Positions 56,509 to 62,490 of a DNA stretch of 64,000 nucleotides are shown here, in pieces; the first letter of the stretch is position 1, and each line of letters begins with the position of its first letter. This DNA comes from Verrucomicrobiota bacterium (GTDB taxonomy: Bacteria; Verrucomicrobiota; Verrucomicrobiia; Opitutales; Opitutaceae). Both the position numbers and the translations under genes were made by a program. The stretch spans positions 62,001-126,000 of the forward strand of contig JAQGOP010000050.1 of the NCBI GenBank assembly GCA_028293545.1. Reading direction: 5' to 3'. The notes beneath the pieces were generated by a model, which did no database searches, was not told where the DNA came from, and worked only from the letters and a program-made list of their open reading frames with translations.

Positions 56509-57654
56509 TCAGGGAAGCACCGAGCTGACGAATCGGGCGCGACCGTCTTTTATCGTGACGATGCTGACGGCCTTCGAGGCGTTGCGGTGGGCGTCGATGG
56601 TCATGCGGCCGGTGACACCGGGGAAATCCTTCGTGGTGGCCAGCGCGTCGCGGACTTTGGCGCCGTCGGTGGTGCCGGCACGGCGCATGGCGTCGGCTAA
56701 CAGCATCATCGCATCGTAGCCGAGCGCGGCGACGCCGTCGGGCACTTGGCCCTCGTAGCGCGCGGCGAATTTCCGGTTGAAGGCGCGGACTTCCGGCGCG
56801 GGCGATTCCGCCGAGAAGTGGGTTGAATAATAGGTGCCTTCGATCGCCTTGCCGCCCAGCTCGACGAGCTGCGGCGCTTCCCAGCCATCGCCGCCGAAGA
56901 GGGGGACTTCGAGGCCGAGTGCGCGCGCCTGGAGGCAGATCAGGGCGGCTTCCGTATAATATCCGGTGGCGGCGATCGCGTCCGGATGCAGCGCTTTGAT
57001 CGCGGTGAGTTGGGCGCGGAAATCCTTGTCGCCCTCGTTATATTTTTGTTCGGCCACGATTTCGCCGCCGGCCGCCACGAAGCGTTCGCGGATGACCTTG
57101 GAAAGGCCGACGCTGTAAGGCGCGGAGACGGACGTGAGCAGGGCGAGCCGTTTGACGTGAAGGGAATCGCGCGCGAATTTCGCGAGGACGGCGCCTTGGA
57201 ACGGATCGATGAAGCAGGTGCGGAAAATGTAGTTCCCCATTTCCGTCACGCGCGGGTTGGTCGCGGAGATCGCGATCATCGGCACGCGGGCGGCCTGGCA
57301 GAACGGGGCGGCTTCGAGGCAATTCGCCGAGGCGTTGCCGCCGAGGATGGCGACGACCTTGTCGCGCGAGATCATCTTTTTCACCGCGGTCGACGATTCG
57401 CCGGACTTCGACTGGATGTCCTCGACGATGAATTCCACGGGGCGCCCGAGGATGCCGCCGGTGGCGTTGAGTTCCTCGACCGCGAGGACGATGCCCTGGT
57501 GGGCGGCGACGCCGAAGGAGGCTTCCTTGCCGGTGAGGGCGGCGTATTGCCCGACCTTGATCGGCTCGACGGCCGCGGCCCACGCGAGCGGGAGAAAAAA
57601 CAACGCGCAGCGGGTGAGGCTGCGCGCGAGCTGGGCCGGGGTCGGAGACCTCAC
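56509..57654 (-). CDS. Liv-type ABC transporter substrate-binding protein (second copy)
   Basis: A 381-residue periplasmic type I binding protein. Signal peptide LTRCALFFLPLAWAAAVE, then IKVGQYAALTGKEASFGVAAHQG, GRPVEFIVEDIQSKSGES, VVAILGGNASANCLEAAP and FRTCFIDPFQGAVLAKFA. It starts at a GTG overlapping the stop of its paralogue and is roughly half identical to it, so the two come from a tandem duplication. Ligand likely an amino acid or amide, not readable from sequence. Confidence 0.9.
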   Translation of the reverse strand: MRSPTPAQLARSLTRCALFFLPLAWAAAVEPIKVGQYAALTGKEASFGVAAHQGIVLAVEELNATGGILGRPVEFIVEDIQSKSGESSTAVKKMISRDKVVAILGGNASANCLEAAPFCQAARVPMIAISATNPRVTEMGNYIFRTCFIDPFQGAVLAKFARDSLHVKRLALLTSVSAPYSVGLSKVIRERFVAAGGEIVAEQKYNEGDKDFRAQLTAIKALHPDAIAATGYYTEAALICLQARALGLEVPLFGGDGWEAPQLVELGGKAIEGTYYSTHFSAESPAPEVRAFNRKFAARYEGQVPDGVAALGYDAMMLLADAMRRAGTTDGAKVRDALATTKDFPGVTGRMTIDAHRNASKAVSIVTIKDGRARFVSSVLP

Positions 57655-58793
57655 GGGGCGATCGTTTCGACGAATTTGAACTGGCCGTCCTTCACCGTGA
57701 CGACGACGGCGGACTTGGTGGCGTTCCGTTTCGCGTCGATCGTGATCATGCCGGTGATGCCGCTGTAATTTTTCGTGGCGGCGAGGGCGTCGCGCACCTT
57801 CGGGCCTTCGGTGGTGTTGGCGCGCTTGATGGCATCGGCGAGGACCATGGCGGAATCATAGCCGAGCGCGGCCATGGCGTCGGGAGTTTCGCCGGCGAAT
57901 TTCGCGCGGAAATCGGCCACGAATTTCTGGACGGCCGGCGAAGTGCTTTCGGGCGAGTAGTGGGTGGTGTAGTACGTGCCTTCGACGGCCTTGCCGCCGA
58001 TCTCGATGAGTTGCGGGGCTTCCCAGCCGTCGCCGCCGAAAATGGGAATCTCGAGGCCGAGGTCGCGGGCCTGCTTACAGATCAACGCGGCTTCCGTATA
58101 ATAACCCGGCACGAAGATCGCGTCGGGCTTGGTGGGCTTGATCGCGGTGAGCTGGGCTTTGAAGTCCTTGTCGTTCTCGGAGAACCTCTGCTCGATCACG
58201 ATTTCGCCGCCCTGCGCGATGAACGGCTCCTTGAAGAACTTGGCGAGTCCCACGCTATACGGGGAGGAAACGGAAGTGAGGAGCGCGACACGCTTGGCCT
58301 TGAGGGTGTTCTGCGCGAATTTCGCGAGGAGGCGGCCTTGGAGCGGATCGATGAAGCACACGCGGAAGATGTAACTGCCCATCTCGGTGACTTTCGGGTT
58401 GGTTGAGGAGGGTGACACCATCGGGATTTTCGCATTCTGCGCGATGGGGGCGGCTTCGAGCGAACGGCCGGAGGCGACTTCGCCGAGGAGGGCGATGACC
58501 TTGTCGCGTGAGATCAGTTTCTTCGCGATCGTGGCGGATTCGCCCTGTTTCGATTGGTTGTCCTCGGTGATCAGCTCGAATTGCTGGCCGAGCGCGCCAC
58601 CGCGGGCGTTGAGCTCCTCGATGGCGAGGAGGGTGCCTTTGTGCGAGGACTGGCCGAAGGCGGCTTCCTTGCCGGTCAGCGAGGCGAATTCGCCGACCTT
58701 GATCGTGGCGGCGGGAGTCTGGGCAATCGCGGCGGCGGCGAAGGCCGTGAAGGCGAGGGCCGGGAGCCAGAGAGTGCGTAGGGCTTTAATCAT
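57651..58793 (-). CDS. Liv-type ABC transporter substrate-binding protein (first copy)
   Basis: A 380-residue binding protein. Signal peptide LWLPALAFTAFAAAAIAQ, then IKVGEFASLTGKEAAFGQSSHKG, FELITEDNQSKQGES, FRVCFIDPLQGRLLAKFA, and PIFGGDGWEAPQLIEIGGKAVEG. First gene of the leftward liv operon. The ATG at 58793 faces the LptF/G gene across about 190 bp. Confidence 0.92.
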   Translation of the reverse strand: MIKALRTLWLPALAFTAFAAAAIAQTPAATIKVGEFASLTGKEAAFGQSSHKGTLLAIEELNARGGALGQQFELITEDNQSKQGESATIAKKLISRDKVIALLGEVASGRSLEAAPIAQNAKIPMVSPSSTNPKVTEMGSYIFRVCFIDPLQGRLLAKFAQNTLKAKRVALLTSVSSPYSVGLAKFFKEPFIAQGGEIVIEQRFSENDKDFKAQLTAIKPTKPDAIFVPGYYTEAALICKQARDLGLEIPIFGGDGWEAPQLIEIGGKAVEGTYYTTHYSPESTSPAVQKFVADFRAKFAGETPDAMAALGYDSAMVLADAIKRANTTEGPKVRDALAATKNYSGITGMITIDAKRNATKSAVVVTVKDGQFKFVETIAP

Positions 58794-58987
58794 AGAGGAA
58801 CGAAGGGTGGAACGTGGAGGAAGGCGGAAGGCAAGGACAGGCGGTGCGAGTTTTCAACCAATCTATTGGATCCCCGTTCGCGCGCGGCCCGGAGGACAAG
58901 ACCGCCGTTAGCAGCCGGCGTGCCGGGCGCGTTGGCGCGGCGGATTGGGTTTTGCTTTCGCGAGGGCAGCGGCTTTGCTCCGCCTCG

Positions 58988-60100
58988 TTGAACACGTACG
59001 ACCGTCACCTGCTGCGCGAGTGGCTTTCGATCCTCGGGATCGTGCTCGGGGCGATGGTGGGATTGATGCTCGTGCAGGTGATGTATGACGACTTCCGCGT
59101 CTTGCGCGAGCTGGGGGCGCGCGGGCTGGAGATGTGGATGTATTTTTTTGTGACGATGCCGAGTTTCCTCGCGAACGTGCTGCCGGTGGCGCTGCTGCTT
59201 TCGCTGTTGTTCGTGCTGGGGAAGCTGCATCGCGCGAACGAGTTCACCGCGATGCGGGCCGCGGGGGTCAGCATGTTCCGGATCACGGCGCCGATCTGGG
59301 CGGTCGGGGTCCTGGCGTGCGGATTGTCGTGGTGGCTCAATTCCTCGGTGGTGCCATGGTCGGTTGAAACCTCGCGATCGCTGCGCGAGGGACTCGATTT
59401 TCGCAAGCAGGCGCAGACCCTGGCGGCGGATCGGGTGGGAGTGGTGGAGAGCGTGGCCTTCGACAACCAGCACGCCGGTCGGATGTGGTTTTTCAACCGT
59501 TACAGCCGGCTGCTCCACCGCGGGTTTGGCGTGACGGTGTCGGACCTCGACAACCGCCGTCGTGAAACCACGCGGTTGGTCGCCTCCGAGGCGTCGTACG
59601 ACGAGCACGGCAAGGGCTGGATTTTCAAGGAAGGGCGCACGATGTCGTTCAATCCCGAGTCGGGGGAGATGATCGGGGTGACGTCCTTCACGCAGGAGAC
59701 GCGGAGCAGCTACAAGGAAGACCCGCAATTGATGCTGCTGATCGACCGGCGTCCGGTGGACCTGTCGTTTTCGGAGCTGAAAACGCTGATCGATTACCTG
59801 CGCTTCGAGAACAGCGACAAGGTCACGAGTTACGCGGTGCGGTATTTCACGCTGATCGCGGACACCCTGGGCCCGCTGATCGTGATCGCGATCGCCATCC
59901 CCTTCGCAGTGTCGGGCGTGCGCGTGAACCCGGCGGTGGGCGTTTCAAAATCGTTCATGCTGTTTTTCCTCTATTATATCCTGGCGAACCTCGCGTCGTC
60001 GCTCGCGACGAAACAACTGATCGACCCGCTCTTCGCGGCGTGGCTGCCGAACATCGGGATGACTGTGCTCGCCGCCTGGCTTTTCGTGCGGCTGCGGTGA
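58988..60100 (+). CDS. LptF/LptG family lipopolysaccharide export permease
   Basis: A 370-residue YjgP/YjgQ-type permease. N-terminal TYDRHLLREWL, two helices (ILGIVLGAMVGLMLVQVMYDD, SFLANVLPVALLLSLLFVLG), the HRANEFTAMRAAGVSMFRI cytoplasmic loop, a periplasmic beta-jellyroll from about 120 to 270, and three further helices at the end. It works with LptB to extract LPS from the inner membrane. No in-frame ATG fits; TTG 58988 sits at the family N-terminus and is my choice. Whether F or G cannot be told. Confidence 0.88.
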   Translation: MNTYDRHLLREWLSILGIVLGAMVGLMLVQVMYDDFRVLRELGARGLEMWMYFFVTMPSFLANVLPVALLLSLLFVLGKLHRANEFTAMRAAGVSMFRITAPIWAVGVLACGLSWWLNSSVVPWSVETSRSLREGLDFRKQAQTLAADRVGVVESVAFDNQHAGRMWFFNRYSRLLHRGFGVTVSDLDNRRRETTRLVASEASYDEHGKGWIFKEGRTMSFNPESGEMIGVTSFTQETRSSYKEDPQLMLLIDRRPVDLSFSELKTLIDYLRFENSDKVTSYAVRYFTLIADTLGPLIVIAIAIPFAVSGVRVNPAVGVSKSFMLFFLYYILANLASSLATKQLIDPLFAAWLPNIGMTVLAAWLFVRLR

Positions 60101-60262: not shown

Positions 60263-60673
60263 TCAGACCACCAGCCGGCGCCACACGGCATTGCTGGGCC
60301 ACAGCAGGATCGACCACACGACGATGCAGTTGATGTAGCTGAGGAAAACGGCGGCGCTCGCCATGTCCTTGATGCGCTTGGCGAGCGGATGGCGCTCCGG
60401 TCGAAGGTAATCGATGATCCACTCGATCGCGGAGTTCAGCAGTTCGACGATCAGGATCAGGATGAGCGATGCGATCATGAGCGCCGTGGAGACGGCGTTG
60501 ACGGGAAGGATGATGGCGAGCGGGACAAGCAGGACCGCAAAAATCAGGTCCTCGCGAAACGACGGCTCGTGCTTGAGGGCCGCGAAAAACCCATCGATCG
60601 AGTAGCGGACCGACGCGATGAAGTTTCGGAAACTGCGCCGTTTTATTTCGGTCGCTTCGACATTTTCAGCCAC
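60263..60673 (-). CDS. Diacylglycerol/undecaprenol kinase family (DgkA)
   Basis: A 136-residue membrane kinase with three helices. The N-terminal part has FRNFIASVRYSIDGFF and the Glu of KHEPSFREDL. The active-site stretch is ELLNSAIEWIIDYL followed by HPLAKRIKDMASAAVFLSY. It phosphorylates diacylglycerol or undecaprenol in the inner membrane. Start GTG 60673. Gram-negative DgkA shape with a slightly longer N-terminus. Confidence 0.92.
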   Translation of the reverse strand: MAENVEATEIKRRSFRNFIASVRYSIDGFFAALKHEPSFREDLIFAVLLVPLAIILPVNAVSTALMIASLILILIVELLNSAIEWIIDYLRPERHPLAKRIKDMASAAVFLSYINCIVVWSILLWPSNAVWRRLVV

Positions 60674-60822: not shown

Positions 60823-61329
60823 TCAGGACGCAGAAATACCGATGCGTCGCGTGGATCTTTTTTGGCCGATGAAACCGCAGGCGAACTCGATGACTTCCTC
60901 GCGGTAGCCGACGAATTGGAGCACGCGCGCGAGGAATCGGCGCTTGGTCGGCGTATCGATGTTCATGATCGCCCAATACTGGGTCCCATCGATCTGGCGC
61001 GCTTGGTTGTGGCGGCACGCGGCGAGGATGTCCTCCTGGTTCAGGCTGAGAAACCGGCGTCCGCCCAGGATGCTGCGAATGAACTCGCCGAAGTCGGCGG
61101 TGTGGTGAGCCGACACCCAGCCCAGCAGCGAGAGGTAACGATCGGCGTCGGTGAACTTGGAGCGGAATTCAGGGCTGAGGATAAAAGCGGCCAGGGGTTC
61201 GGTCGCTTCCGGTGAACCGGTCAGTACATTCAAGAGCGACGCAAGAACGGCGTCGGGCGTGCGATGGAACCCCGTGGCCAGCTTTTGGAGTTCTTCATAG
61301 ACCTGATCGCTGACATCGATCGTTTTCAT
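60823..61329 (-). CDS. SeqA-like replication initiation regulator
   Basis: A 168-residue protein (E. coli SeqA has 181). The first 35 residues, MKTIDVSDQVYEELQ then TPDAVLASLL, match the SeqA N-terminal oligomerisation domain. The C-terminal part (FLSLNQEDIL, GTQYWAIMNIDTPTKRR, VLQFVGYREEVIEFACGFI) follows the SeqA hemimethylated-GATC-binding domain closely. Of the base-contacting loop, Asn150 corresponds to Asn123, but Asn152 to Asp125. Arg91-Arg92 take the place of Arg116/Arg118. The start codon at 61329 abuts AACCGGTT palindromic sequence (61331-61350), a possible operator. SeqA is generally known from Dam-containing Gammaproteobacteria, so this is unexpected here. Confidence 0.78.
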   Translation of the reverse strand: MKTIDVSDQVYEELQKLATGFHRTPDAVLASLLNVLTGSPEATEPLAAFILSPEFRSKFTDADRYLSLLGWVSAHHTADFGEFIRSILGGRRFLSLNQEDILAACRHNQARQIDGTQYWAIMNIDTPTKRRFLARVLQFVGYREEVIEFACGFIGQKRSTRRIGISAS

Positions 61330-61589
61330 TAAACGGTTTGAACCGGTTTAGTAGGTTCAAGTAAAGCAATCTGCGATGAATGACAGGCTCGAACGGACCA
61401 ACTTTAGCCGCGAAGGGACCAGAATGAACGCAAATCAGAGCCCAATCTGTTTTTACAGGAGCCCATCCGAGGAACCCGACTTCCGCAAATGGAGGCAATG
61501 GCTACGGCGAGTCGTTGATTCATCGCGCGGGGTTCCAAAAGGTCGCCACTAAAAGGCCATGGGGCGCGAATGCGGGCAACCGCGCCGAA

Positions 61590-61702: not shown

Positions 61703-62440
61703 TCACGGCATGACTGGCTTGCCGTTCCGGAGGGTGGTGACCCGGGAAAAACCATGCTCGATCGCATACTCGATCAACTTGGCCGACGTCGTAATCCCCA
61801 GCTTGCGCATGATGTTGTTGCGATGGGTCTGGGCGGTGCGGGGAGCGAGGCTCAGAACGAGAGCGATCTCCTCGTTCGAGGCGAAGCCGCCTATCAAGGA
61901 AAGGACCGTATACTCCCGCTCGGAAAGGATCTTGTTAAAAGCCGCGGCATTACGGGTCCGCGCGCGCTGAGCCTCGAGATAGCTCGGAGAATAGTATTTG
62001 CCACCCTGCAGGAGGGCCGCGCAAGCGCGTCGCAGGGCTGTGAGCAGTTCGGTCGTCTTGTCCACAAAACCGTCGGCGGAAGCCTGTTCGACGCGAAAGA
62101 GGGTGAAATCGTCACAGTGAGAAGAGAGGAGGAGAATTTTCGTCTGGGGCCAGCGCAGGCGGGTAAATTCCGCGACCCCGAACCCGTCGCCATCAGGCAG
62201 ATGCAAGTCAATCATGACCAAGTCCGGACGGGTTTCCTCGATCACGCGCTTGGCCTTGCGGCCGGTGTCCGCCTCGGCGACGACCTGCCAGCCGAACTCG
62301 GTCAGGCAAAGCTTTCGCATCACATCGCGGAACATCTCGTGATCCTCCACAAGGGCGACGCGAACGCGGCCGCCAGGGTGGGGAGATGATGCTTCCACGG
62401 GGGGAGCAGGGCTGCCGGTAGGGATGCGGTTGGATTTCAT
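61703..62440 (-). CDS. NarL/LuxR-type response regulator
   Basis: A 245-residue regulator. A short Pro-rich leader precedes the receiver (VRVALVEDHEMFRDVMRKL, phospho-Asp in LVMIDLHLPDGDGFG, Thr/Ser in LLLSSH, Lys in GFVDKT). The HTH has ILSEREYTVLSLIGGFASNEEIALVLSLAPRTAQTHRNNIMRKLG read in pieces. Start ATG 62440 (a TTG at 62452 is possible). There is no kinase beside it. Two CTACGTAAATTCG repeats lie upstream. Confidence 0.9.
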   Translation of the reverse strand: MKSNRIPTGSPAPPVEASSPHPGGRVRVALVEDHEMFRDVMRKLCLTEFGWQVVAEADTGRKAKRVIEETRPDLVMIDLHLPDGDGFGVAEFTRLRWPQTKILLLSSHCDDFTLFRVEQASADGFVDKTTELLTALRRACAALLQGGKYYSPSYLEAQRARTRNAAAFNKILSEREYTVLSLIGGFASNEEIALVLSLAPRTAQTHRNNIMRKLGITTSAKLIEYAIEHGFSRVTTLRNGKPVMP

Positions 62441-62490
62441 GAGGGCAACCAAGGGGGTGAGGGAAGGTTTTCGCGCGGCGAGAGTGAAGT

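Follow-up and report, generated by a model that had tools for sequence, protein, structure and literature searches.

The open reading frame at 60823-61329 on the minus strand of the 64,000-nucleotide stretch analysed here (the window) encodes, virtually without doubt, a homologue of SeqA, by which E. coli reads the recent methylation state of newly replicated DNA, and it belongs to a subfamily that holds a fixed chromosomal place in many Opitutaceae genomes. SeqA itself is a known kind of protein; what is new is a SeqA subfamily that is not tied to Dam, together with an ACCGGT element that is its candidate target. The function of this protein is probably independent of Dam and of GATC methylation, and we give about even odds to the broader reading that it is a Dam-independent, self-regulating DNA-binding protein built on the SeqA scaffold, representing a SeqA-fold subfamily of the Opitutaceae.

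The reading frame is intact, begins with ATG and specifies 168 amino acids. Its translation matches the Pfam model of the SeqA C-terminal domain (PF03925) with E=4.7e-13 and 49.6 bits against a cut-off of 25.5, while the score with the N-terminal domain model (PF17206, SeqA_N) is 11 bits and lies under the cut-off of 23; of the two domain models by which the initial annotation proposed to check its SeqA assignment, only the C-terminal one thus gives a match over its threshold. A phmmer comparison with the SeqA-DNA crystal structure 3fmt aligns residues 1-154 (E=3.4e-9), and a 12-row profile of relatives matches the same structure with E=9.4e-15 and 1xrx weakly (E=0.057). By tblastn the protein is about 22% identical to E. 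coli SeqA over residues 1-154, and the MKTI.V start and the YWxIxN and CGFI elements on which the assignment had been based are all present. With the NCBIfam SeqA equivalog model (NF008389) it scores 50.7 bits, so far below the cut-off of 185 that we regard it as a homologue of SeqA and not as an equivalog. A predicted model of the C-terminal domain, built from an alignment of six sequences, is of moderate confidence (mean pLDDT 75.5), and its best five PDB matches are all SeqA chains (Foldseek probability 0.99-1.00, query TM 0.59-0.65), in agreement with the fold that had been anticipated. Given the weak E-values of these matches (0.09-0.36) and the moderate quality of the model, the fold assignment comes mainly from sequence homology, and we consider it likely that the C-terminal domain has a SeqA-like fold; a full-length AlphaFold model from a 6-row alignment had a mean pLDDT of 57.7 and was set aside. 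Values of dN/dS against five named relatives are 0.10-0.30, with dS saturated at about 1 or more, and being low they suggest a working gene. These relatives are MAGs assigned to Verrucomicrobia (two), Opitutaceae (two) and Verrucomicrobiia (one), and the Verrucomicrobiota host that had been proposed from the sequence is correct; the titles of these relatives suggest that the family of the window is Opitutaceae.

With gammaproteobacterial SeqA (PF03925 plus PF17206, NF008389) the protein shares the domain order, the likely fold of the C-terminal domain, an Asn at the position of N150, an R118-like Arg, and the YWxIxN and CGxI elements. The N-terminal domain (residues 1-41; 61207-61329, minus strand) is in register with the SeqA oligomerisation domain, with T18, I21 and A25 of E. 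coli SeqA replaced in the alignment by A, F and P; the C-terminal DNA-binding domain (residues 48-149; 60883-61188, minus strand) is followed by a basic tail, unlike that of E. coli SeqA. Compared with E. coli SeqA, the inter-domain stretch is shortened by 26 alignment columns, and comparison of the alignments indicates that the crystallised 3fmt construct is likewise without part of it. The DNA-reading loop and the start of the next helix extend from W119 to R131 (60937-60975, minus strand), a conserved block in the 12-row alignment A1, and N123-I-D125 of the window protein aligns with N150-T-N152 of E. coli SeqA; the initial annotation was therefore right that the GATC-contacting loop keeps one Asn and has Asp in the second position. 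PMC6225831 gives the DNA contacts of SeqA as R116, R118, N150 and N152, and its Table 4 marks N150 and N152 as retained in each of the seven species set beside E. coli. The window protein keeps N150 and an R118-like Arg, has Asp for N152 and has no Arg counterpart of R116, so that the full set is absent. The invariant columns of A1 include R92, N108, A110, R111, W119, A120, I124, D125, T128, R130, R131 and R135, and since positions of the DNA-reading region are among them this region is strongly constrained.

The strand-helix-helix pattern of SeqA_N is similar to that at the N-termini of ribbon-helix-helix-like antitoxins and repressors, with which the gene also shares a promoter layout suggestive of self-regulation; unlike ribbon-helix-helix antitoxins, however, the window protein carries a SeqA C-terminal domain, and its match to the antitoxin model PF02697 (VAPB_antitox) is not significant (E=0.15, with E. 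coli SeqA itself at 0.03). NCBIfam NF047386, named as a secretion-effector family, also matches weakly, its first 41 positions aligning with residues 1-41 of the protein (E=1.6e-4); the two probably share a small N-terminal domain.

Within a sample of the phylum, PF03925 matches 15 of 387 genomes at E<=0.001, 14 of them over the cut-off, and of these 15 genomes 14, counting the window's own, belong to the same family as the window, the remaining one, G131, being in another family of the same order. The family's own profile finds a match in 32 of 120 family genomes, representing 17 of 49 genera, some as fragments only. Two fragments, G461 and G462, are left out of the row counts. Phyla beyond Verrucomicrobiota were covered only by a close-relative scan of genome contigs, and a 'SeqA-like protein' is mentioned for an archaeal genome in PMC10354927. 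Viral contigs and phages, both of which were searched, gave no relatives, and a phage origin is therefore unsupported. The plasmid collection gave 14 matches, all within gammaproteobacterial records. One E. coli plasmid record (CP043024.1, 5997-6347; L133) has an unannotated SeqA-like match with 44.6% identity over query residues 57-181, of which frame reading yields only 24 codons.

An unrooted tree of 40 proteins, which excludes the partial G160 and G390 and the 24-residue CP043024 row, separates 34 family members by a 100/100 branch from five gammaproteobacterial proteins and that of G131. SZAS-20 (L018) and G430 (L049), apparently one genome, are counted once in the tree and in the upstream sets. 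The family members comprise sub-types A (19 rows), A' (four rows) and B (11 rows), and we place no reliance on the grouping of A' with B or on that of G131 with Shewanella, both of which involve long branches. Asp replaces Asn152 in 33 of the 34 rows, G399 being the exception. The loop is N-I-D or N-L-D in 18 of the A rows, including the window, and N-L-G in G399; it is N-I-D in A', which consists of paralogues in G271, G339, G424 and G464, and G271 carries both the A and the A' types. Every B row has D at position 152, while position 150 is T in nine, S in one and N in one (10 of 11 having lost N150), and the N-terminal domain of this type differs from that of A. The partial G390, outside the tree, has N-I-A. 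The G131 protein (L023:9652-10320, minus strand; PF03925 69.9 bits), unlike that of the window, groups on the gammaproteobacterial side, on a long branch of unsure place, and also differs from it in having the loop N-T-S and Arg at both the R116 and R118 positions; no D12 methylase was found in this genome, and its SeqA-like protein is probably a separate acquisition.

The gene is followed by dagK, for a diacylglycerol kinase (60263-60673, minus strand; PF01219, 8e-33), which as neighbour cluster 4 comes after the seqA homologue in 11 of 21 loci, namely 4 of 10 A-type and 7 of 8 B-type loci. An LptF/LptG permease gene (58814-60100, plus strand; PF03739, 5.7e-61) forms neighbour cluster 3 and is found in 12 of the 21 loci, and a LuxR-type response regulator gene (61703-62452, minus strand; PF00072 and PF00196) lies upstream. 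The distribution, tree and synteny fit one old acquisition or origin followed by vertical inheritance and many losses, the unrooted tree giving no direction. The window also contains two adjacent and similar Peripla_BP_6 substrate-binding protein genes (56509-57654 and 57651-58793), likely a tandem duplication, whose neighbour cluster (cluster 0, large and mixed) recurs close to seqA in relatives.

SeqA is regarded as so closely bound to Dam that a survey of gammaproteobacterial genomes took the presence of seqA as a sign of Dam (PMC4786541). We found no mention of SeqA in Verrucomicrobiota in titles and abstract openings of the CC-licensed PMC literature. Unlike gammaproteobacterial SeqA, the window's family is not tied to Dam. 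The Dam-type (D12) methylase model PF02086 has no match in the window's whole genome (G000, 84% complete); the initial annotation had likewise seen no Dam gene in the sequence before it. Matches to PF02086 occur in 29 of the 120 family genomes, 6 of the 32 with SeqA and 23 of the 88 without it (Fisher p=0.48); none was found in 97-100% complete carriers such as G060, G099 (closed), G339 and G436, and PF05869 matches 0 of 17 carriers. Among six further genomes, PF02086 is present in those of L019 and L020 and gave no match in G360, G131 or those of L017 and L021. The suggestion that a Dam/SeqA system had been transferred as a pair is unsupported by these counts, and we reject it. Five D12 matches from carriers were compared with the Dam-family cut-off, three being clearly over it, one narrowly over and one below, and since most of these sampled matches pass, Dam-like enzymes do occur among the carriers, patchily.

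Other methylase families give a mixed picture. PF01555 has matches in 78 of the 120 family genomes, and strong ones (E<1e-15) in 19 of 32 genomes with SeqA versus 30 of 88 without (p=0.02, uncorrected for kinship), an enrichment that runs against the view of a Dam-independent reader of sequence. Neither D12 nor a strong PF01555 match is present in 12 of the 32 carriers. PF02384 was found in 12 of 15 carriers tested and PF00145 in 7 of 15, and the window's own genome has matches to both and a weak match to PF01555. None of the methylase families tested occurs in every carrier: among the four families G060 has only PF00145 and a partial PF02384, and G436 (98% complete) has no match to PF02086, PF01555, PF02384 or PF00145. 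That the protein reads a different mark, as had been proposed, is conceivable, given that other methylases are patchily present and strong PF01555 matches are somewhat commoner with the gene, but none of the families tested accompanies it throughout. Because carriers are often without a matching methylase, the protein probably has some other means of recognising DNA, and the simplest reading is that it reads a sequence rather than a mark.

Near dnaA, the observed/expected ratio of GATC is 0.82-1.04 (mean 0.95) in ten family genomes with SeqA, 0.76-0.95 (mean 0.87) in five without it and 1.07 in G131, and 20 places along G099 give 0.97-1.08; we find no GATC enrichment in the sampled sequence, with the SeqA-carrying set slightly above the other. 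The 1.5 kb upstream of dnaA has no overall GATC excess (at most 16 versus 12.0, in G271), and the densest 500 bp hold 7-14 GATC sites in genomes with SeqA versus 7-11 in those without, these being dnaA regions and not a located oriC. The GC skew of G099 in 20-kb samples (L107, L108 and L140-L159) changes sign around 0.7-1.9 Mb and at 4.1 Mb, placing dnaA (at 0) away from the apparent origin, and a search for oriC by DnaA boxes saw no tight cluster. Copies of the E. coli-type DnaA box, TTATCCACA, are scarce in seven genomes with SeqA (28 versus 84 of a reversed-pattern control in G000, G060, G099, G091, G271, G122 and G274) and not scarce in four without it (73 versus 38 in G088, G018, G223 and G140), composition and kinship being uncontrolled.

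Directly upstream of the start codon lies a candidate operator, ACTAAACCGGTTCAAACCGTT (61332-61352, minus strand), with two AAACCG units 10 bp apart as counted by eye. It scores 29.7 bits with a position weight matrix (PWM) of which it is a training site, and the other PWM matches in the window, among those listed, all overlap it. Of 19 A-type orthologues, 17 (all except G060 and G399) have an ACCGGT palindrome no more than 60 bp from the start codon, versus 0.31 expected; these counts leave out G274, whose N-terminus is missing, as well as G360, G160 and G390. In 300-bp upstream regions it occurs in 16 of 17 A-type genes versus 1.4 expected from dinucleotide shuffles, and the commonest 6-mer in any of 60 shuffle sets reached 13. 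The consensus of 15 A-type sites is ATTAAACCGGTTCAACCTGTC, of about 23 bits. In a PWM scan of 365 kb, all matches of at least 16.2 bits are at seqA promoters, many of them training sites, and the highest score away from seqA in another 631 kb is only 16.0 bits; no equally strong copy was therefore seen away from seqA in about 1 Mb, which is a small part of each genome. Because most are training sites, the high scores at seqA are uninformative and only the absence elsewhere is informative, and since shuffled sequence reached 15.3-20.5 bits, weak true sites (18.0-18.9 bits) are inseparable from chance.

The promoter element differs among the sub-types. All four A' paralogues have a palindrome of their own, ACCT-N7-AGGT (GACCTAAAAAACAGGTC and variants), about 14-29 bp upstream of the start; in G424 it exactly fills the spacer of TTGACA-N17-TATTTA, and in the other three it is similarly placed by eye, although the scripted pattern picked different hexamers for G339 and G464 and, for G271, a spacer of 15 bp. 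ACCGGT is found in none of the nine B-type upstream regions examined. G399, the sole A row without D152, is also without ACCGGT, yet G060 keeps the N and D of the loop and is likewise without it; since the N-terminal domain of the B type differs too, the co-variation of element and protein is not specific to the C-terminal loop. A palindrome that covers the promoter, accompanies the gene and differs from one protein sub-type to another would be expected of a self-repressor, and on balance these sequence comparisons slightly favour the SeqA homologue regulating itself through the element. That it is the C-terminal loop that reads the element is conceivable, though on the same comparisons rather doubtful.

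Farther upstream, at -51 relative to the start codon, is a TTCATCGC box (61373-61380, minus strand), which is repeated at 21-bp steps in some relatives. Similar TTCRTCGC-like boxes at -49 to -54 precede 10 of the 19 A genes, 5 of the 9 B genes and none of the four A' genes, with repeats at this step in, for instance, L027, L037, L166 and L025; among pairs 12-60 bp apart in 1.37 Mb, a spacing of 21 occurs six times, 42 three times, 43 twice and others once each. We considered the 21-bp-spaced boxes as SeqA sites, in view of the spacing of two to three helical turns that SeqA requires for efficient binding in vitro (PMC5145175), and set them aside, a similar pair at L019:9286 (minus strand) preceding a kinase-like and then a LytTR-like reading frame, as read by eye. 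Direct repeats at 21 bp are typical of LytTR regulators, and the boxes are possibly a LytTR-type activator site.

Several other explanations need to be weighed. The protein could be a classical Dam-dependent SeqA that sequesters hemimethylated GATC, with Dam missed because of an incomplete genome or an unrecognised class of enzyme. Such a SeqA would be consistent with homology that runs from residue 1, MKTI start included, with the retained N150 and R118-like Arg, with Dam-family enzymes in some carriers (those of G414 and G181 are over the TIGR00571 cut-off), and with a GATC frequency near dnaA that is slightly less low where SeqA is present; we nonetheless consider it highly improbable, as D12 is unassociated with SeqA and is missing from the near-complete carriers, the otherwise conserved N152 is Asp, and GATC frequencies are near expectation. 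The protein might instead follow the hemimethylated state of another motif, set by an m6A, m4C or m5C methylase, and so still recognise new DNA. The palindromic core of the element, CCGG, is of a kind that methylases are known to target; the reading region ranks with the best-conserved stretches of the protein and yet N152 has changed, and strong PF01555 matches are modestly enriched with SeqA. The want of any tested family common to all carriers, and in particular the methylase complements of G436 and G060, make this an unlikely explanation.

It may also be that an unrelated repressor, of the LacI family for example, uses the element as its operator, and that the SeqA homologue binds elsewhere or non-specifically. 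The sequence AAACCGGTTT does resemble LacI-family operators, and SeqA is described in PMC5145175 as binding unmethylated DNA non-specifically. Against this, the scanned sequence has no equally strong copy off the seqA promoters, which would be unusual for a shared regulator, and the A' paralogues at other loci have their own, similarly placed palindrome, and we assign this explanation a low probability as well.

If the protein is, as we prefer, a Dam-independent and self-regulating one on the SeqA scaffold, it would dimerise through its N-terminal domain, and the dimer would bind short paired sites, AACCGGTT with AACC[T/G]GT, spaced by roughly one helical turn, and repress its own promoter, so that the protein level would be held by feedback. 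Beyond controlling itself it may act on the nucleoid or on replication, like SeqA, or serve as an ordinary gene regulator. SeqA forms N-terminally joined dimers whose C-terminal domains bind two sites, and a short linker such as that seen here would favour closely spaced ones; the candidate half-sites are 9-10 bp apart, as counted by eye. General amino acid-base contacts are such that Asn to Asp could favour cytosine over adenine, and the change at the reading residue could fit a shift from the adenine of GATC to the cytosine of CCGG or ACC[T/G]G. Together, the short linker, the close half-sites and the Asn to Asp change suggest that the SeqA scaffold has here been re-tuned for paired ACC[G/T]G sites. 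For E. coli-type SeqA, PMC5145175 states that efficient in vitro binding requires two GATC sites spaced in phase, two to three helical turns apart. Alternatively, the N-terminal domain may read the element in the manner of a ribbon-helix-helix protein.

A clade of SeqA homologues whose occurrence does not follow that of Dam, with a changed reading loop and a candidate target of its own, breaks, outside the Gammaproteobacteria, the rule that links SeqA with Dam. It constitutes a natural experiment on the gain or loss of hemimethylated-site recognition, and the 21-bp element at 61332-61352 is a concrete candidate target for testing. We tentatively propose, as a possibility that we rate below even, that the clade represents a lineage-wide SeqA-fold protein, unrelated to Dam, that reads an unmethylated, cytosine-containing palindrome with ACC[G/T]G half-sites through its Asn152 to Asp loop, regulates itself, and may control replication or the nucleoid without a methylation clock. 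Were this so, the SeqA scaffold would be older or more widespread than methyl-reading, which would be one of its specialisations and not its defining property.
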